From the NCBI RefSeq assembly GCF_000016065.1, contig NC_009092.1:3038001-3102000 (forward strand): DNA of 64,000 nucleotides, in the 5' to 3' direction. The stretch's first letter is position 1. Each line of letters opens with the position of its first letter. The translations under genes were made by a program, and so were the position numbers. The DNA comes from Shewanella loihica PV-4. Its GTDB lineage: Bacteria; Pseudomonadota; Gammaproteobacteria; Enterobacterales; Shewanellaceae. This document shows, piece after piece, positions 9,230-34,132 of this stretch. Below the pieces are notes generated by a model, which was not told where the DNA came from, did no database searches, and saw nothing but the letters and a program-made list of their open reading frames with translations.

Positions 9230-9446
9230 TCCTATCAGTAGCGCTCCATAGTGATACCCATTCTCGGTATACCTTCCACTTATCAATCCAGATAAGAAGC
9301 ACTATGGCAGTGCTGCCTCTATTCGATGACAGCCCCAGCGGCAAGCCTTGATCAACTCCACCACTTCGGCACCAAATCCTTTCATATTCGCTTAACGGCA
9401 TCACCCTAACGAATACTACTGATATTTAATGCACCTCTACGTCTCA
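9230..9446 (-). promoter_or_regulatory. Lysine riboswitch (L-box) in the nhaC leader
   Basis: Read on the minus strand, the leader has the conserved lysine-riboswitch segments in order. They are ACGTAGAGGTGCA (5' strand of P1 and the AGAGGTGC motif, about 9442-9430), a short stem ending in AGTA, GTGCCGAAGTGG (the GCCGAAG core, about 9372-9361), GGGGCTGTCA, and finally TATGGAGCGCTACT (about 9250-9237). GTAG and CTAC close P1. These match the RF00168 core elements as I remember them. The aptamer ends about 78 bp before the nhaC start. No clear intrinsic terminator follows, so translational control is more likely. Confidence 0.88.
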
Positions 9447-9496
9447 GGACGCCTGCCAATGTCACTATCGGCAAACGTGAGGCACATAAAAACACA

Positions 9497-27658: not shown

Positions 27659-27994
27659 ATGGTTCACACCACCGCCCCCGAAAATTACTGTAATGTCGAT
27701 AAATATCTGTCTTTAATATCAACCAAATGGACAGCCCACATCATCTATCTCCTCAGTCAACACCCAGTGATGAGATTTGGTCAGATCCAGAAGCAACTAG
27801 CCCTCGTCTCCAGCAAGGTACTGAGTTCGCGTTTAAAGCTACTGGAGGCTGAAAAGTTTATCTGGCGAGAGCAGCAAGCGACCATCCCGGTAACGGTTAA
27901 CTATGGACTGACACCTAAAGGACAAGAGCTGGCCGATATCGTCCTCAAGATTGTCGAAAAAACAGAATCATGGAGCCTGGATGGCCACAAGTGA
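27659..27994 (+). CDS. HxlR-family winged-helix transcriptional regulator
   Basis: This 111-residue protein is a complete HxlR (DUF24) regulator: a leading cysteine (NYCNVDKYLSLISTKWTAHI), a winged helix-turn-helix (MRFGQIQKQLALVSSKVLSSRLKLLE, cited in parts) and the wing with YGLTPKGQELADIV. In this family the N-terminal cysteine often senses quinones, aldehydes or reactive oxygen/chlorine species. It faces the NTF2-like gene across a shared promoter region. Confidence 0.9.
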   Translation: MVHTTAPENYCNVDKYLSLISTKWTAHIIYLLSQHPVMRFGQIQKQLALVSSKVLSSRLKLLEAEKFIWREQQATIPVTVNYGLTPKGQELADIVLKIVEKTESWSLDGHK

Positions 27995-28370
27995 GATTCT
28001 AGATAACCAATTTATGAGACACTTGCGTTGGCGACAACGCTGATATCGCCCGATTCCCCTCCCCCCATAGTCCGAGAGCAAAGCGATTTAGTTGCATTTC
28101 TAGCATCTAGCCAGTTTGAGGATTGGCAAGTAAGCCGTAACCATGGCTTTATGATGTATCAATTGCCTGCCGCAGGTGCAGTGCATGGATGCACCAATGT
28201 CGAGATCACTTGGATGTGATTAAACGACCTTTATGTGCAAACACCTAGTTATCCATCTCTTCGATTGAGCGACTTCTGTATCCGCGACGATCAAACACCA
28301 AATCATTTTTGGACATTTTCGAGTTAAAGCCTTAACGCTAACCTGTCAGTTTCGGATAAAAATTCTATGG
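27995..28370. other. Junction region between the HxlR gene and the cassette array
   Basis: No convincing gene. A 63-codon frame (28028-28219, TTG start) has no ribosome-binding site or recognisable motif. Several small hairpins are present (near 28030 and 28170). The first attC-like site of the array starts right after this region. Confidence 0.35.
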
Positions 28371-28470
28371 GATAACACCCGCCTAATGGGCAGAATAAGC
28401 TTGACTAAAATTACGAGAAATCAGCGTCAGCCAAGCTTTAGACGTCCATTCATTAATGCGTTTGTTATGT
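28371..28470 (-). repeat. attC-like recombination site A
   Basis: On the minus strand it begins CATAACAAACGCATTAATG directly after the lipoprotein gene stop and ends ATTAGGCGGGTGTTATCC. Inner segments AAGCTTGGCTGA and AGTCAAGCTT pair. This is the R''-L''-L'-R' layout of integron attC sites, close in style to Vibrio repeats. It is the last site of the array. Confidence 0.8.
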
Positions 28471-28471
28471 G

Positions 28472-28813
28472 TTACCTGGTGATGAACAACTCTTCAACGA
28501 TCAAATGCCAGCCTTGTTTCTTCATACACTGCACTAGTAAAACGCTTCGGAGAGCATGAGTGGGTAACTTTGAGCTTGATGATTTCAACTGATTCAAACA
28601 CAAGTTCAGAGCCTTGGTTTGTTCAGCCTTTTGCTTATCAGTCAGGCTATAAGTATCTTTACTGCCAATTGGAGCCCACGACTTATAGTACCCAAAATGT
28701 GGTTCTATCAATTCGAGTCCAGTTAACTCTTGGCTGGTTTGCTCATATGTTCCTGTGGTTCTACAGCCGACCAACAGCATAATTAGACAAACTGTGGCTA
28801 AAATTCTACTCAT
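28472..28813 (-). CDS. Cassette-encoded small lipoprotein, unknown function
   Basis: This 113-residue protein has a lipobox (IMLLVGC, Cys near 17) and a mature part of about 95 residues with two further cysteines (LNLCLNQL and LLVQCMKKQGW) that could form a disulphide. It is the last cassette in the array, and its stop codon abuts attC site A. I do not recognise the family. Confidence 0.65.
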   Translation of the reverse strand: MSRILATVCLIMLLVGCRTTGTYEQTSQELTGLELIEPHFGYYKSWAPIGSKDTYSLTDKQKAEQTKALNLCLNQLKSSSSKLPTHALRSVLLVQCMKKQGWHLIVEELFITR

Positions 28814-28829
28814 TACTTTCCCGTATACA

Positions 28830-28926
28830 TAATACCGCGTGAATATGTGAACCGTTTTCTAGATATCGATTTACGCAGCAAAGGGCATGACAATCTTGGA
28901 GAATCTAACTTTAGCGGATTGCTAAG
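28830..28926 (-). repeat. Degenerate attC-like site B
   Basis: On the minus strand CTTAGCAATCCGCTAAAG overlaps the membrane-protein stop codon, and CACGCGGTATTATG lies at the other end. CCGC/GCGG pair, but the GTT core is altered to GTATTAT. It is probably a worn attC, placed where one is expected. Confidence 0.4.
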
Positions 28927-29329
28927 TAGCATTATCATTCTGCTCTGCAAGTTTCCGGATCTCTGGCAATTGGTACTGTAGTATGCCAAAAATGACAATC
29001 AGCGGAATTATTGCAAGCCATAATACCCCATCAATAAACCACAATGTGGTGAATAGGATTTGAATAAACACATATAAGATCAACTTGAGCCAAGGTGGAA
29101 ATATAAGCATTTGTCCAATTGCTAGAAATGGTAAAGCAAAGAGTAAGGTCGAAAATACGACAAGTGCTGGATGAAACCCAAGAACTTCAGCACCGACAGT
29201 CTCTTGGAAAAAGTCATAGCCAAAAACTACAAATATGGGAAATAGCGACAAAACTACATAGAGCACACTCTGCCTTTCCTTAGCTATCAACTTCGAGTGT
29301 TCATCATTTTTCTGCTGAAGAGTCTTCAT
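28922..29329 (-). CDS. Cassette-encoded integral membrane protein, unknown function
   Basis: This 135-residue protein has about four hydrophobic segments (VLYVVLSLFPIFVVFGY, LVVFSTLLFALPFLAIG, LILYVFIQILFTTLWFI and VLWLAIIPLIVIFGILQ) between charged ends. It lies between attC-like sites B and C as a single-gene cassette. There is no family recognition. Confidence 0.65.
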   Translation of the reverse strand: MKTLQQKNDEHSKLIAKERQSVLYVVLSLFPIFVVFGYDFFQETVGAEVLGFHPALVVFSTLLFALPFLAIGQMLIFPPWLKLILYVFIQILFTTLWFIDGVLWLAIIPLIVIFGILQYQLPEIRKLAEQNDNAT

Positions 29330-29341
29330 ACCATCCTTGCC

Positions 29342-29421
29342 ATTTAACGCCGGTCAGTAGCATCCGAGTGAAACGAGGTCCAGCGAACAACGGGAACGTT
29401 GCTCGCTGACTTGGTTATAGC
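29342..29421 (-). repeat. attC-like recombination site C
   Basis: On the minus strand CTATAACCAAGTCAGCGAGC contains the stop codon of the Cys-rich gene, and the site ends TACTGACCGGCGTTAAATG. GTCAG/CTGAC and an inner GCGAGCAACG/CGTTGTTCGC hairpin pair. Confidence 0.8.
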
Positions 29422-29711
29422 TTGCCATTTATATTGCGAGTTTTTATTTCTTGAAGACAAGCGATGCACATTACTTTAGGGGCAGCGAAGGCAGCAGCAA
29501 CTTCATTCCAATCACCTTGACTCATGAGCATATCGTCACAGGACTTGCACCACACATTCTCGACTTCTGAACGGTCAGGTTCATTTTCATCATCTGCATC
29601 AAAATACTCTATCGGAAGATGGTCAGCAGATTGGTTCACGAGATGTTGGCATACAAGCGCATAATCCATCAATCCATGCTTACAACAGTCAATTTTTTCG
29701 GAGTTATCCAT
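29415..29711 (-). CDS. Cassette-encoded Cys-rich (probable zinc-binding) protein
   Basis: This 98-residue protein has C-C-x-H-G at the N-terminus, C-x-H near residue 22, W-C-x-x-C-D near 55 and C-x-x-C near 84, a spacing that suggests one or two structural zinc sites. Similar small proteins occur in many unrelated bacteria without known function. The stop codon TAA lies inside the R'' box of attC site C, typical for cassettes. Confidence 0.7.
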   Translation of the reverse strand: MDNSEKIDCCKHGLMDYALVCQHLVNQSADHLPIEYFDADDENEPDRSEVENVWCKSCDDMLMSQGDWNEVAAAFAAPKVMCIACLQEIKTRNINGKL

Positions 29712-29723
29712 ATACCCTCATGA

Positions 29724-29824
29724 GCTATAACGCTCCACTATGGAGCGAGTAATAGTTGGCTAAAATGTGTAGCGAAGCGAAGCCAAGCCAACTGTTACGA
29801 GTCCCGCTTCAGTGGTTTGTTAAG
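29724..29824 (-). repeat. attC-like recombination site D
   Basis: On the minus strand CTTAACAAACCACTGAAGCG at the gene stop and CATAGTGGAGCGTTATAGC at the other end, with CCACT/AGTGG pairing. The middle (GTTGGCTTGGC, then a TAGCCAAC complement) pairs too. A GTGTAGCGAAGCGAA segment of the centre is shared with site E. Confidence 0.85.
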
Positions 29825-30245
29825 TAGCCGACTTCCATTTAGCTACAATGCTTTCGTATTTTTCGTCGACCAGTTCGTCATCGTCTGGGCAAGAAAATAA
29901 AACAACTTGAAGAGCATTATAGGATTTTGGAAATTCAGAAAGCTTATCCATTATTTCCAGTGCTTCAGAGTCGGTTAGCTTGTTTTTGTGAATGTACGAA
30001 AGTGAAGCTGGTTCAACGATGTCCTGGACAGGGCTGGCAAATGATTGCTTCCAATAATTATACATTTCCAAGTGCTTTGCTTGCCTCAACTTCTCTGATG
30101 CTGGCAAACGACATATTTCATGAAGTACAAGAAAGGGAGCATCTTCACCTAATTCAATTGATAGCTCGATGATTCGTTTCCATTCACTTTCATCATGGTA
30201 AGGAAATTTGCAATCGATACTGTAATAGAATTCTTCGTAGGTCAT
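29820..30245 (-). CDS. Cassette-encoded soluble protein, unknown function
   Basis: The frame is open up to 30404, but that extension lies across attC site E. The start at 30245 (MTYEEFYYSIDCKFPYHDES, preceded by GGCGATAAA) is therefore used, giving 141 residues. The protein is acidic and helical, with a C-terminal FSCPDDDELVDEKYESIVAK region. No motif is recognised. Its stop falls in the R'' box of attC site D. Confidence 0.65.
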   Translation of the reverse strand: MTYEEFYYSIDCKFPYHDESEWKRIIELSIELGEDAPFLVLHEICRLPASEKLRQAKHLEMYNYWKQSFASPVQDIVEPASLSYIHKNKLTDSEALEIMDKLSEFPKSYNALQVVLFSCPDDDELVDEKYESIVAKWKSAT

Positions 30246-30268
30246 TTTATCGCCGATGTATCCTTGGT

Positions 30269-30371
30269 TATTTAACGCCCGCATAATGGGCGGATTAAAC
30301 TTGGCTAAACTGTGTAGCGAAGCGAAACTGATCCAAGCTTTAGCAGTCCCGTACTTAATTGGCTTGTTAGG
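30269..30371 (-). repeat. attC-like recombination site E
   Basis: On the minus strand CCTAACAAGCCAATTAAG at the gene stop and CATTATGCGGGCGTTAAATAA at the far end. The centre contains CTTTGCTTCGCTACACAG-type sequence related to site D, and TAAAGCTTGGAT/AGCCAAGTTTA pair. Confidence 0.85.
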
Positions 30372-30666
30372 TGTTTTTATCCACAAGCATACCATTTTTA
30401 ACATCAGTTGGGATATTAACCCACGTTGTTTGATTATTTGTTGCTAGATTAATATTACAGTTTTTGGCGACTTTGAGTATGTGATGAAACCAATCTGAAT
30501 GACTCCACTCTCTTGGTGGTGGAGAAGTAAATGCTTTTAGGTTGCTATCCCACTTCACTTCAGCGGCTTCTCGATAAATATATTGATAACTAGAGTTACC
30601 GCCACTAGCTAAAACTAATATCAATTGACCGTTTTCAAGTACTTCCACACGCTCGATTAGTTCCAT
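30367..30666 (-). CDS. Cassette-encoded small protein, unknown function
   Basis: The frame starts at ATG 30666 or 30672, six bases apart. The product is about 99 residues: beta-rich start (ELIERVEVLENGQLILVLAS), then SSYQYIYREAAEVKWD and a tryptophan-containing SPPPREWSHSDWFHHIL helix. Proteins with this layout occur in integron cassettes, as far as I recall, but no function is known. Its stop falls in the R'' box of attC site E. Confidence 0.65.
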   Translation of the reverse strand: MELIERVEVLENGQLILVLASGGNSSYQYIYREAAEVKWDSNLKAFTSPPPREWSHSDWFHHILKVAKNCNINLATNNQTTWVNIPTDVKNGMLVDKNT

Positions 30667-30677
30667 GATCAATAAAT

Positions 30678-30760
30678 ACCTAACGCCCGGCTAAACGGTG
30701 CGAACGCAGTGAGCGTCCGGCGGAGTGAAACGGAGCGTATTTAAGCCGCTTGTTACATGT
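30678..30760 (-). repeat. attC-like recombination site F
   Basis: On the minus strand GTAACAAGCGGCTTAAATAC at the phosphatase gene end and TTTAGCCGGGCGTTAGGTAT at the far end. GCGGCTTAAA and TTTAGCCGGGC pair imperfectly, and an inner CGCTCACTGCG/CGCTCCG-type stem is present. Confidence 0.85.
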
Positions 30761-30761
30761 T

Positions 30762-31088
30762 TTAGCTAAGGCGAACATGCCTTGCCACCCTAGACTCTAA
30801 CAGCCGAATTAACTCTGGCTGCATACGGTCGTAATTGTCGGGGATATCTAAGCAGATCAACTTTTTCCCTTTGAGAAAATCTTTAAACTTTTTAGATACC
30901 TTATTTCTATGACTCTTTTCCATTACAAGGATGACATCAGCCCATTCGACAAGATCACCACTGACCACTGTTTCTGCATCCGAGTTTGTGCCTGCTCCAA
31001 TAGCGTTAATTCCGGGGTACTTGGAGAATACTTCTTCTCCCGTAGGACTTCTCAACCTATTTTCACTGCAAACGAATAGTAGATTCAT
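30762..31088 (-). CDS. Cassette-encoded low-molecular-weight phosphotyrosine phosphatase-like protein
   Basis: This 108-residue protein has the LMW-PTPase P-loop C7-S-E-N-R-L-R13-S-P-T at the very N-terminus and a later LDIPDNYDRM segment that may hold the general acid aspartate. It is shorter than typical 150-residue enzymes. The family removes phosphate from tyrosine or acts as arsenate reductase. The function as a cassette product is unknown. It sits between attC sites F and G. Confidence 0.8.
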   Translation of the reverse strand: MNLLFVCSENRLRSPTGEEVFSKYPGINAIGAGTNSDAETVVSGDLVEWADVILVMEKSHRNKVSKKFKDFLKGKKLICLDIPDNYDRMQPELIRLLESRVARHVRLS

Positions 31089-31100
31089 CAGATTCCTGGT

Positions 31101-31228
31101 GACATGTAACGCCCAATTAAGGTGTGAAGCACGCGACCACAGAACTTAATTTAACCACCGTAAACACTAAACTTAACCCAAACCAAAAATGCCAAGCGTG
31201 CTGAATCACTCTTAAATTGTTTGTTAGC
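31101..31228 (-). repeat. attC-like recombination site G
   Basis: On the minus strand GGCTAACAAACAATTTAAGAG includes the stop of the Mrr-like gene, and CACCTTAATTGGGCGTTACATG closes the site. CAATTtAAG and CTTAATTG pair. At about 125 bp it is the longest of the array. Confidence 0.8.
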
Positions 31229-32024
31229 CGTTTCCTTCAGCCATGTACATACCTTTTGCCATAACCTTAGAAGGAGTTACATCATCACTCGTATATAGAA
31301 TACAGTTTGGGTTGTACTCTCCGTTTTGGTGCATTTCCCATTCAGCTGCAAGCAACTTACTTTCAAAATGATTAAAATTGAGATTGAACCAGTTTTGTAG
31401 TTGCTGAAAGTTGTCAGCCTGCATTTCCCCTTGATGCTCTTCATGCATCGTGTCTAGAATAATTGGATAATTCCGATCAGTTGCAGCCATTAGTGCTTTT
31501 CTCGCAACACCCAATAACATTTGTCCCGTAAATTTGAGCTGAAAGTCCATTAGGTGATGTCGAAGCCCATATTTAATTCGAATTTCTTTCGAGTGAGACC
31601 AATATCTATTTTCCAGTAAGTCCAAGCGAGCTTCATAGGTTTTAAGTATTTCAGATTCGATAAAACCTTTAGTTTCTTCTTTGAGCTCGTCAAGTGTTAA
31701 GAGCTTAACGTTGGTATTCTTCGAAGCCTCAATTGCTCCAGATTGAAATCCACTGCTAGAAACAATAAATGCTTTGTCTACCCCTAGATCTTCTGAAATG
31801 CTGCGAAGAGCTAATACGTGACCTTTGTTTACCTTACGTTTCCAGAGCTTTGCTTCAACAATCCATTTTAGGTCGATGCCCAAAAATTTAGTTTTTACAA
31901 ATACATCAACATCATGGTTTGTCCTGACACCAGTTAAGCTGACATTTGTTTCAGCTTCTGCTCCAATAGCATTGAAGTGCTCGCATATTTCCTCTTGAAA
32001 GATAAACCAATCTTCTTGACGCAT
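31224..32024 (-). CDS. Cassette-encoded Mrr-type restriction-endonuclease-like protein
   Basis: The 266-residue product carries a PD-(D/E)XK nuclease core in its first 115 residues: H-D38-V-D40-V, then V-E57-A-K59-L-W, then KAFIVSSSGFQSGAIEASKN and LLTLDEL. This is the Mrr_cat pattern. The C-terminal 140 residues (starting ESEILKTYEARLDLLENRYW) are unknown and may recognise DNA or a partner. It is the first cassette of the array. A type IV restriction or other anti-phage role is an inference from the family. RBS GAAGGTG precedes the ATG. Confidence 0.75.
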   Translation of the reverse strand: MRQEDWFIFQEEICEHFNAIGAEAETNVSLTGVRTNHDVDVFVKTKFLGIDLKWIVEAKLWKRKVNKGHVLALRSISEDLGVDKAFIVSSSGFQSGAIEASKNTNVKLLTLDELKEETKGFIESEILKTYEARLDLLENRYWSHSKEIRIKYGLRHHLMDFQLKFTGQMLLGVARKALMAATDRNYPIILDTMHEEHQGEMQADNFQQLQNWFNLNFNHFESKLLAAEWEMHQNGEYNPNCILYTSDDVTPSKVMAKGMYMAEGNG

Positions 32025-32059
32025 TAATCACCTTCAATACTCATATTTTTTGTCGAAAC

Positions 32060-32066
32060 GGCTAAC
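32060..32066 (-). promoter_or_regulatory. Cassette boundary (GTTAGCC core) upstream of the first cassette
   Basis: On the minus strand GTTAGCC lies 36 bp before the Mrr-like ATG. It resembles the GTTRRRY recombination core, so it is probably the attI- or attC-side edge of the array. The upstream sequence does not look like a full attC. Confidence 0.45.
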
Positions 32067-32077
32067 ATTTTATTAGT

Positions 32078-32196
32078 GCGCATGCGCGTTTACCTCGTTG
32101 GACCAGTTAAAACGCGCATAGTTAACTATCTGTATACAATGAACTTATCAGCATTTTGCTAAATATACCATCTGGAAAAACGCGCATGCGCGTTTT
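32078..32196. repeat. GC-rich palindrome cluster next to the array
   Basis: ATGCGCGTTT (32082-32091) pairs with AAACGCGCAT (32110-32119) around an 18-bp loop. AAAACGCGCATGCGCGTTTT (32177-32196) is a perfect 20-bp palindrome built from the same motif. The flanking sequence is AT-rich. Confidence 0.8.
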
Positions 32197-32522
32197 CCAA
32201 ACCTATTATCCACTTAACGAATAGTTTAAGTGATTAATTTTAATGGTATTTGATTAAGTAGGAGTGAGAAAATGCGCACGAATACAGGATGAAAATCGTT
32301 CAAAATCCTTATGATTTAAATATGACTGTGTACTTATCCAGTTTTTAATGGGGAGTAGTGAATTACACCACACAGCGTAACGATAGAAATCTCTAGACCA
32401 AAGAGTCCGTTCGTTGCAAATCCACCGACACCGTTTAACTCATTTTGAGGCAAAATCAGTTAGCTTTCACACCTTAATCACACCCACACAGCTAAATCGA
32501 AGAAACGTTGAATACACAGTGT
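32197..32522. other. AT-rich stretch beside the array
   Basis: No gene, hairpin or known motif was recognised. No integrase reading frame is present here on either strand. Confidence 0.4.
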
Positions 32523-32771
32523 AAGCACGCTTTTGGCCCTCGGCGGCATGGACGCCGCCGTGGAGCGTATAGGGACATATTTACAGTGTGCCAAAAGCGT
32601 ACTTGCACAGCCCTCGCCGGGCAGGCGTTAGGTAGCCATGAAGGTACGACTTTCAAACACCTAATCAATTCTAATACCACCAAACGCGATCACCTTGAAT
32701 CACGACATTCGTACTTCCATGTACAGCACTCGCCGGGCAGGCGCTAGGTTGCCATGAAGGTACGACCTTCA
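32523..32771. repeat. Repeat element: 14-bp inverted repeat around a hairpin, plus two 48-bp direct repeats
   Basis: AAGCACGCTTTTGG (32523-32536) and CCAAAAGCGTACTT (32591-32604) are inverted copies with one mismatch. Between them CGGCGGC-ATGGAC-GCCGCCG (32541-32560) forms a hairpin. Two 48-bp direct repeats (32608-32655 and 32724-32771) begin CAGC-C/A-CTCGCCGGGCAGG and differ at only a few positions. No protein is encoded. It looks like a non-autonomous repeat of the genome. Confidence 0.65.
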
Positions 32772-32905
32772 GAAATCCTCCCAGCACCCAAGCTGCCAGA
32801 CGCCCCCCTAAGAGGAAGCCAAAAACAACAATGCCCAACCCCATCCAAGGTCGAGCATTAACATTATTCAGAATTAGCGCTTACTCTAAAAGCTACACTA
32901 GGGCG

Positions 32906-34132
32906 CTACCTCTGATCCTCAATCACCACCCCATCATCCGCCAGCGCCCCTGGCGCCACCAGCGCCACCTCCCCCGACAGTTGGGTCTCGGCGCGGATCG
33001 AGTCCTGCACGGCGGCGATATCCAGCTGTGGCCCCGTCGCCTCATCCACCTCGCACAGCAGACGCATCAGATCGTTGTCCTGCTGACGGGTGACGACTAA
33101 GCGCACCTTCACAATGCCCGGATGACGGCGGCGAATTCGCTCCACCTGCTCGGGATGGACAAACAGGCCCTTCACCTTAGTGGTCTGATCCGCGCGGCCC
33201 ATCCAGCCCTTGATGCGCACATTGGTGCGGCCGCAGGCACTCGTGCCCGGCATGATGGCCGACAAGTCGCCGGTGGCGAAGCGCACTAGCGGATAGTCGC
33301 GGTTAAAGCTGGTGACCACCACCTCGCCTACCTCGCCTTCGGGCACAGGAGTTAAGGTGCCGGGCCGCACTATCTCGACGATGATATCTTCGGCAACCAC
33401 CAGGCCTTCACCCGAGACGCTCTCGAAGGCGATAAGGCCAATATCGGCGGTGACATAGGCCTGCTTGACGTCGATATCCGCCGCCTCGAAGCTGGCCTTG
33501 AGGGAGGGGGTTAACACCTCACCCGACACCAGTGCCTTGGTGATGGAACTGGTATCCTTACTCAGGGCTTTACCCTTCTCCAGCAAGATATTAAGAAACG
33601 AGGGGGTGCCGCAGTAGCCATTTGGCTTAAGCGAGGCGATAAGGTCCAGCTGCATCTCGCTCTGCCCAGGCCCTGCCGGGATAACGGTGCAGCCACAGGC
33701 CCTGGCGCCCGAGTCCATGATGAAGCCGCCGGGCGTCAGATGATAAGCCAAGCAGTTTTGCACCAGGTCGCCTGCTCGAAATCCGGCGGCGAAGAAGGCC
33801 TGCCCCATGCGCCACCAGTCGTGGCCGTCACACTCGGGATCATAGATGGGCCCGGGTGACTGAAAGATGCGCCCGCTGGGCTTTCTTGGCGTCATGCCGG
33901 CAAAAGGCGGCAGTTTGGCCTGCAGGGCGATAAGGTCTGCCTTGTGGGTGATGGGCAGGGTCGCCAGCGCCTCACGGCTATCGATGCTGCTCACCTCGAT
34001 ATCGGTCAATAGCTCGGCGTAATAGCGGCAGTTTGCCTTGGCATAGCTGAGCTGCTCGGGCAGCGCCGCCATCAGCTGCTGCTCGCGCTGCTCGGGCGCA
34101 AGCGCCTCTTCGGGTTTGAAATAATCGGCCAT
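32906..34132 (-). CDS. Phenylacetate-CoA ligase-like (PaaK family) adenylate-forming enzyme
   Basis: The 408-residue protein is PaaK-like: an N-terminal LPEQLSYAKANCRYYAEL segment, PSGRIFQSPGPIYDPE in place of the phosphate-binding loop region, and the later VVVTSFNRDYPLVRFATGDLS, GRADQTTKVKGLFVHPEQVE and C-terminal LVVTRQQDNDLMRLLCEVDE. It should activate an aryl or other carboxylate to its CoA ester. It is the last gene of the minus-strand transporter/ligase operon, 9 bp after the ATPase gene. The substrate is not known. Phenylacetate itself is unlikely, since no paa genes are adjacent. Confidence 0.82.
   Translation of the reverse strand: MADYFKPEEALAPEQREQQLMAALPEQLSYAKANCRYYAELLTDIEVSSIDSREALATLPITHKADLIALQAKLPPFAGMTPRKPSGRIFQSPGPIYDPECDGHDWWRMGQAFFAAGFRAGDLVQNCLAYHLTPGGFIMDSGARACGCTVIPAGPGQSEMQLDLIASLKPNGYCGTPSFLNILLEKGKALSKDTSSITKALVSGEVLTPSLKASFEAADIDVKQAYVTADIGLIAFESVSGEGLVVAEDIIVEIVRPGTLTPVPEGEVGEVVVTSFNRDYPLVRFATGDLSAIMPGTSACGRTNVRIKGWMGRADQTTKVKGLFVHPEQVERIRRRHPGIVKVRLVVTRQQDNDLMRLLCEVDEATGPQLDIAAVQDSIRAETQLSGEVALVAPGALADDGVVIEDQR

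Follow-up and report, generated by a model that had tools for sequence, protein, structure and literature searches.

An integrase-less cassette array in Shewanella loihica PV-4 behind one of nine dispersed copies of a predicted attI site

The stretch of DNA analyzed here, hereafter the window, comprises 64,000 nucleotides (3,038,001–3,102,000) of the complete 4,602,594-bp genome of Shewanella loihica PV-4, and positions 28,370–32,065 of it hold a genuine integron cassette array without an integrase, consisting of seven cassettes, all on the minus strand, as delimited by the open reading frames (ORFs) of the window and by boundary analysis. Judged from sequence, the array starts at the end of an intI-linked sequence that is present in nine copies in this genome, with differing cassettes with matching ends behind it. 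Integrons are usually described with one attI beside one integrase. We interpret the window as one platform of a distributed integron, in which many integrase-less attI platforms would be filled by the integrase IntI acting in trans, and assign this reading a probability of about 0.78. Taken by itself, the array would be of a familiar type; the novelty lies in the dispersal of attI. The names attI, R'', R', and Pc are used in their customary sense.

The array and the attI copy at its head

The 350 bp before the first cassette are a dispersed repeat whose end coincides with the start of the array, and matches to other copies ran from query base 6 in many copies (up to five candidates scored per genome). 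The last 148 bp of this repeat, the attI core (32,063–32,210, minus strand), end at the cut AATG^TTA, contain the repeats AAACGCGC/GCGCGTTT at −130, −120, −52, and −26, and were 98% identical by BLAST (96.6% end to end) to sequence beside the complete intI of Shewanella insulae. The upstream part of the repeat (32,211–32,415, minus strand) is less conserved than the core. For searches, the last 35 bases of the core were used as the attI pattern, with the reversed pattern as control, and a match to TIGR02249 over its cut-off was taken as a complete IntI. An attI copy lay 279–284 bp from intI, in divergent orientation, in at least 11 of the 20 genomes with both the attI pattern and a complete IntI, directly in nine (G013, G068, G069, G073, G090, G092, G100, G106, and G111) and after correction for a match starting inside the IntI model in G015 and G120; the count covers part of the attI places and is therefore a lower bound. 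Homology over the 148 bp was confirmed at ten of 11 fixed-spacing intI loci (76–97%). Because this segment lies between intI and the first cassette, ends at the cut, and carries repeated GCGCGTTT motifs, it is recognizable as attI, and the copy at 32,063–32,210 is accordingly identified by its sequence as an attI that abuts the first cassette. With regard to the cassette promoter Pc, a scan of 31,900–32,900 for sigma-70-type promoters returned one site, outside attI, versus 2.0 expected in shuffles.

The preliminary description of this DNA had read the array as a CALIN-like element (cluster of attC sites lacking integron-integrases) without attI. The absence of an integrase stood, while the absence of attI did not, one of nine copies being present at 32,063–32,210. 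The array thus combines two or more nearby attC sites and no nearby integrase, as in a CALIN, with an attI before the first cassette, as in a complete integron, of which the S. loihica genome lacks the intI gene. Because an attI copy abuts the first cassette, the array is better described as an attI-bearing integrase-less platform than as a bare attC cluster. Alternatively, the cassettes may have landed at nonclassical attG sites, which require little beyond a GWT-like triplet, the preceding sequence being incidental. Such insertion is known (Loot et al. 2024, as cited in PMC12444791), every IntI cut falls at G^TT, and attG would account for cassettes far from an integron and could apply to the attC matches without recognizable attI described below. 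However, attG sites are not attI copies, whereas here 148 bp of attI are present; these 148 bp are repeated nine times in this genome and stand at a fixed distance from intI elsewhere, which refutes attG insertion for the window junction, and as an overall account it is very unlikely.

The R' end of its own attC stays at the start of an integron cassette, and therefore the R'' before the cassette end should complement the first bases of that same cassette. Cassette starts (the first base after G^TT, minus strand) fall at 32065, 31109, 30683, 30275, 29730, 29347, and 28832, and the last attC of the array is cut at 28375. Over the seven cassettes, R'' was complementary to the first bases of its own cassette at 36 of 42 positions, versus 17 of 42 for those of the next cassette; permuting the pairings gave a mean of 21.7, and a count of 36 was reached in 2 of 5040 cases, one of which is the true pairing. 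The ends of the first cassette (C1) match over twelve unbroken bases. Seven small minus-strand genes with attC-like sites, and GCGTTA ends at five of these sites, had been reported in the preliminary description and were found again by ORF and sequence analysis (GCGTTA at 31112, 30686, 30278, 29733, and 29350); the seventh site ends in GTGTTA and the sixth is degenerate (CTTAGC ... GTATTA).

A covariance model of our own, distinct from that of IntegronFinder, was trained on attC3, attC4, and attC7 together with five attCs of other loci. Stems of these eight attCs covary, with 85.9% of cells paired versus 74.0% in shuffles (0 of 500 as high), 11 pairs changed on both sides, and pairing of at most 45.7% when the partner was slid by 1–3 columns. 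Such a covariance scan had been proposed as a check on the window, and it supported five of the seven sites, two of them held out of training; training attCs scored 79–95 bits, held-out attC1 and attC2 scored 40.9 bits (E 1.7e-7) and 29.3 bits (E 1.5e-4), and attC5 and attC6 were missed at E ≤ 1. The one further model match in the window, at 18 bits (E 0.12), was attC4 read on its opposite strand. Folding energy of the single-stranded DNA was weak evidence, with z below −2 for two of seven attCs and most sites not separated from shuffles. An arm-pairing attC finder, applied to 249,258 bases, gave 5 matches and no opposite-strand match, but missed all window attCs; being too strict, it was replaced by own-end matching and the covariance model. 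At gathering scores, Rfam gave no attC match, its sole match being a lysine riboswitch (RF00168) at 9231–9447 of the window (113.2 bits).

Dispersal of attI and absence of IntI

The attI pattern occurred nine times in the S. loihica genome and 193 times across the genus, where 40 of the 129 Shewanella genomes searched contained it; the reversed pattern gave no match among the rows listed. Two or more copies were found in 29 genomes, up to a maximum of 13, and the 40 attI-bearing genomes divided into 20 with and 20 without a complete IntI (this division and the sum of 193 were counted by hand from per-genome rows). Outside the genus, 3 of 364 genomes of the order had the pattern, with a single copy apiece, versus 10 of 30 Shewanella genomes in the same draw. 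These counts bear on the reading of the array as an ordinary CALIN, that is, as the relic of a single chromosomal integron that lost intI, the other loci being unrelated relics. The genome does lack IntI, attC6 is degenerate, and integrase-less attC clusters are common in Shewanella, where PMC9229058 (section 3.4) reports CALINs in 59 complete genomes, of which 26 lack intI, along with 115 single cassettes. One relic, however, does not yield nine separate attI copies, nor 193 in the genus with other cassettes behind them, and IntI-bearing species hold dispersed attI copies besides the one at intI. An ordinary CALIN is disfavored by the dispersed attI and is, in our assessment, unlikely.

Own-end matching was extended to 21 attI copies (nine from S. 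loihica, eight from Shewanella marisflavi, two from S. insulae, and one each from Shewanella aquimarina and Shewanella algidipiscicola). The bases behind the attI cut recurred downstream as a complementary R'' of at least 8 nt for 14 of the 21 copies, versus 17 of 420 swapped pairs, and none of 10,000 permutations gave a sum as high; five of the nine S. loihica copies passed. Cut sequences of 79 distinct attI copies were G^TTA in 67, G^TTC in seven, G^TTG in three, G^TTT in one, and CTA in one. Over the whole genome, with 150 of 345 candidates scored, the attC model matched 32 places at E ≤ 0.1. Of these, 18 lay within 6 kb downstream, on the same strand, of seven of the nine attI copies (4, 3, 4, 4, 1, 1, and 1 matches), and two followed a further, tenth copy that has lost internal sequence (at about 2,193,350). 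By our own arithmetic, the nine 6-kb stretches behind attI make up about 0.6% of the stranded genome.

At some copies elsewhere, other sequence stands directly behind attI. A segment of about 340 bp starting TTCTTGACCTGCGG lies between the attI cut and the apparent cassette start at loci L133, L134, L143, and L146 (genomes G013 and G103), and is possibly a small element inserted at attI. At L107, L145, L233, and L237 attI is followed by TTGAACTAAGCC, with a tyrosine-recombinase-like frame next in L107 and L145, perhaps an IS91-like element inserted at attI.

The window ORFs hold no integrase frame in the flank of the array, in agreement with the preliminary description, which placed the integrase either elsewhere in the genome or among lost genes. 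The former was not borne out: the complete genome contains no IntI over the TIGR02249 cut-off of 265, and we infer loss. The best pieces, of 80.1 and 65.5 bits, fall in two Xer-like recombinase genes, presumably XerC and XerD; in both, a stretch of about 54 positions that lies between the two matched pieces in the IntI model is missing. That such host Xer-type recombinases, rather than IntI, move the cassettes is suggested by the fact that no other tyrosine recombinase of this genome comes close to the IntI model; on the other hand, the sites are typical attI and attC, intI adjoins the same attI in other species, and the stretch of about 54 positions is missing from both genes, and we regard this explanation as hardly credible. 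S. marisflavi likewise has no IntI over cut-off. S. aquimarina, also without IntI over cut-off, carries a 54-position N-terminal IntI fragment (G153:C6:270385-270546), perhaps a trace of integrase loss.

Cassette exchange and cassette content

The array is flanked by a CoA-ligase-like gene (32,906–34,132) and an HxlR-type regulator (27,659–27,994), and its region has a G+C content of 41%, versus 54% for the whole window. By the flanking ligase gene, the nearest named relatives are S. marisflavi, S. aquimarina, and S. insulae. In S. marisflavi the ligase, repeat, attI, and downstream flank agree with those of the window, but the cassettes are two different ones. Next to the ligase, S. aquimarina and S. 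insulae carry different genes, and attI is absent at that place. At a second platform, the 1,513,833 locus, the flanks and the left hairpin region (see below) are common to four relatives and the content between them differs: attI is present in G091, together with different contents; S. marisflavi shows different genes and a sequence that we interpret as an attI remnant; and in S. aquimarina and S. insulae no attI is visible, the genes being cassette-like but again different. All of S. loihica, S. marisflavi, S. aquimarina, and S. insulae share the final gene of this locus (159 residues), which G091 lacks. Old distal and new proximal cassettes are the pattern predicted by insertion at attI. 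Since S. loihica and S. marisflavi are now without IntI, the exchange would have used an IntI since lost or one from outside.

Pieces of the array were also sought in the 129 Shewanella genomes, with up to two candidates scored per genome. C6 recurs as a single cassette in at least five genomes (G023, G145, G112, G121, and G102), where its homologue starts within 5 bp of the predicted boundary in five of five and ends within 9 bp of the C6 end in four of five. Gain and loss of the genes as units, on which the preliminary description had staked its reading, was thus upheld between species, both by the orthologous platform of S. marisflavi and by single-cassette homologues with matching boundaries. 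Among the matches listed, homologues of C2 occur in G063 and G015, of C3 in G067 and G094, of C4 in G076 and G028, of C5 in G105, and of C7 in G015, G141, and G106, and for C1 just attC1 recurs. The C3 homologue in G067 begins 344 bp from an intI, and G067 is without a copy of the dispersed attI; the cassettes are therefore common to integrons using another attI. In G033:C26 (L288), the attI repeat runs directly into the interior of C4, the fragment being about 98–99% identical to the window C4, an indication that a relative once carrying C4 behind such a platform underwent a deletion.

From attI outward, and all on the minus strand, C1 (31110–32065) contains an ORF (31224–32024) for an Mrr_cat nuclease-like protein, in line with the nuclease proposed earlier (PF04471, E 9.4e-15), and its attC1 (126 nt, 31104–31229) has a 94% copy elsewhere in the genome. 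C2 (30684–31109; ORF 30762–31088; attC2, 81 nt, 30678–30758) had been assigned a phosphatase, of which there remains a weak PF01451 match of 21 residues, at 23.4 bits versus a cut-off of 23.2. The protein of C3 (30276–30683; ORF 30367–30672) matches PF18287, Hfx_Cass5, an integron cassette protein family, and an Hfx_cass5 relative is named in S. loihica PV-4 in PMC3548836; attC3 (103 nt, 30270–30372) has an own-end match. C4 (29731–30275; ORF about 29820–30245) encodes an unknown protein and ends in attC4 (101 nt, 29725–29825), also with an own-end match. C5 (29348–29730; ORF 29415–29711) encodes an unknown Cys-rich protein, and attC5 (79 nt, 29342–29420) has an own-end match of 9 nt. The C6 product (28833–29347; ORF 28922–29329) is an unknown membrane protein, and the degenerate attC6 (28827–28927) was placed by boundary analysis. 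C7 (28376–28832; ORF 28472–28813) encodes a putative lipoprotein (LVGC motif by eye), followed by attC7 (101 nt, 28370–28470) with an own-end match. The four proteins other than those of C1, C2, and C3 had no Pfam match, and none of the seven matched defense-system models.

Hairpin repeats and a proposed distributed integron

Beyond the attI repeat lies a hairpin repeat (32,491–32,609, minus strand; inverted-repeat core 32,491–32,512), and an inverted, degraded core is found at the other end of the unit (28,249–28,270, plus strand; 6 of 22 mismatches), where the neighboring 62 bp are also conserved in S. marisflavi. The hairpin core TCTAACGTCTCTTCGATTTAGC was present on the left of 18 of 22 units, within 2.2 kb (L186 being doubtful), and its inverted form on the right of 10 of 21, within 12 kb; the stem covaries strongly over 22 aligned copies. 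In the S. loihica genome the hairpin pattern, which flanks accessory small genes and cassette units, had 41 matches (control 0), including loci without attI. The outer border of the hairpin-flanked unit is not sharp. No empty site was seen, the left hairpin region being kept in all four relatives at the 1,513,833 locus, because every relative compared is occupied.

The intI-attI locus of S. insulae has a left hairpin; that complete intI-attI integrons are bounded by hairpins in general was considered and was weakened by ten other loci (L267–L276) without the core within 3 kb on the left. By our own reading, a copy in G103 resembles the intI locus of S. insulae, except that a deletion between short repeats would have removed intI. 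In L175, an HNH-endonuclease-like frame (judged by eye) stands between the left hairpin and attI, the place of intI in S. insulae. A 340-residue protein adjoins the hairpin core in four loci (L195, 6382–7404; L200, 5979–7001; L203, 5686–6708; L206, 1044–2066); it resembles an IS110-family transposase, and the hairpin may be its insertion target.

A fairly unlikely alternative is that the unit is a transposable hairpin-ended element containing an attI fragment, and that some transposase, not IntI, produced the distribution of cassettes by moving whole units. In its favor are the left core (18 of 22 units, of which one is doubtful), the right core (10 of 21), the strong covariation, and the 41 copies. 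Yet movement of whole units leaves unexplained both the differing cassettes behind one orthologous platform and the own-end matching; target duplications or a transposase were not found, hairpins also stand at loci without attI, and the hairpin is within 3 kb on the left in 1 of 11 intI-attI loci examined. Such an element may still account for the spread of attI, and our leading guess is that attI moved or was copied together with the hairpin repeat at unit ends.

Under the distributed-integron reading, the starting point is an attI copy without an integrase gene, here at 32,063–32,210, with seven cassettes following it. IntI supplied in trans, whether by an ancestor still having it or by a transient plasmid or donor, would insert circular cassettes at scattered attI copies; cassettes would turn over beside attI, and old ones would pile up far from it. 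The genome would since have lost IntI, and its arrays would now be frozen, though open to any incoming IntI of the same type.

Several results weigh against this reading. Filling of platforms by a trans-acting IntI is deduced from sequence comparison, and the complete S. loihica genome is now without IntI by TIGR02249. An own-end match of at least 8 nt is missing behind 7 of 21 attI copies, including four of nine in S. loihica; 12 of 79 copies have a cut other than G^TTA; and in the genome-wide search the copies at 678,481 and 3,246,238 had no match of the attC model behind them. Conversely, 12 of the 32 attC matches have no recognizable attI in front, 11 of them lying at six loci with the hairpin repeat and one having neither. 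At the 1,513,833 locus, attI is plain just in S. loihica and G091. Fixed attI-intI spacing was unseen in nine of the 20 genomes with both: no adjacent copy was among those listed in G008, G085, G103, G110, and G118, in G009 intI is at a contig edge, and in G022, G024, and G132 spacing was judged on part of the attI places.

With regard to known systems, CALINs and single attC sites lacking integron-integrases (SALINs) in Shewanella similarly comprise attC cassettes away from intI, scattered over the chromosome with or without intI elsewhere (PMC9229058); here, in contrast, clusters begin at a conserved attI, and section 3.4 and the attI passages of PMC9229058 mention no attI at CALINs or SALINs. 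A sedentary chromosomal integron likewise has attI and attC cassettes, the newest next to attI and the oldest distal, but has one attI beside intI, whereas here there are many attI platforms per genome, and the S. loihica genome lacks intI. Delta-attI cassettes of mobile integrons share the presence of attI sequence outside its usual place; as described in PMC12901181, however, these are attI pieces inside array cassettes, whereas here attI and the upstream part form a separate chromosomal platform. No report of dispersed attI was found in the open-access literature, a search that leaves most subscription journals and preprints outside and is not proof of absence.

For the genus, we slightly favor the view that part of Shewanella possesses a distributed integron in which a chromosome has as many as 13 attI outposts, dispersed along with the hairpin repeat and all served by one trans-acting IntI, the outposts of integrase-less species being frozen and refillable. 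Genomes that have IntI and genomes that lack it carry this attI at numerous positions, which offers a natural test setup. If the reading is correct, a single integrase would write cassettes into many chromosomal neighborhoods, each with its own expression context; attC × attI recombination would explain the origin of part of the integrase-less cassette clusters; and many of the CALINs and SALINs of Shewanella would derive from the distributed integron.

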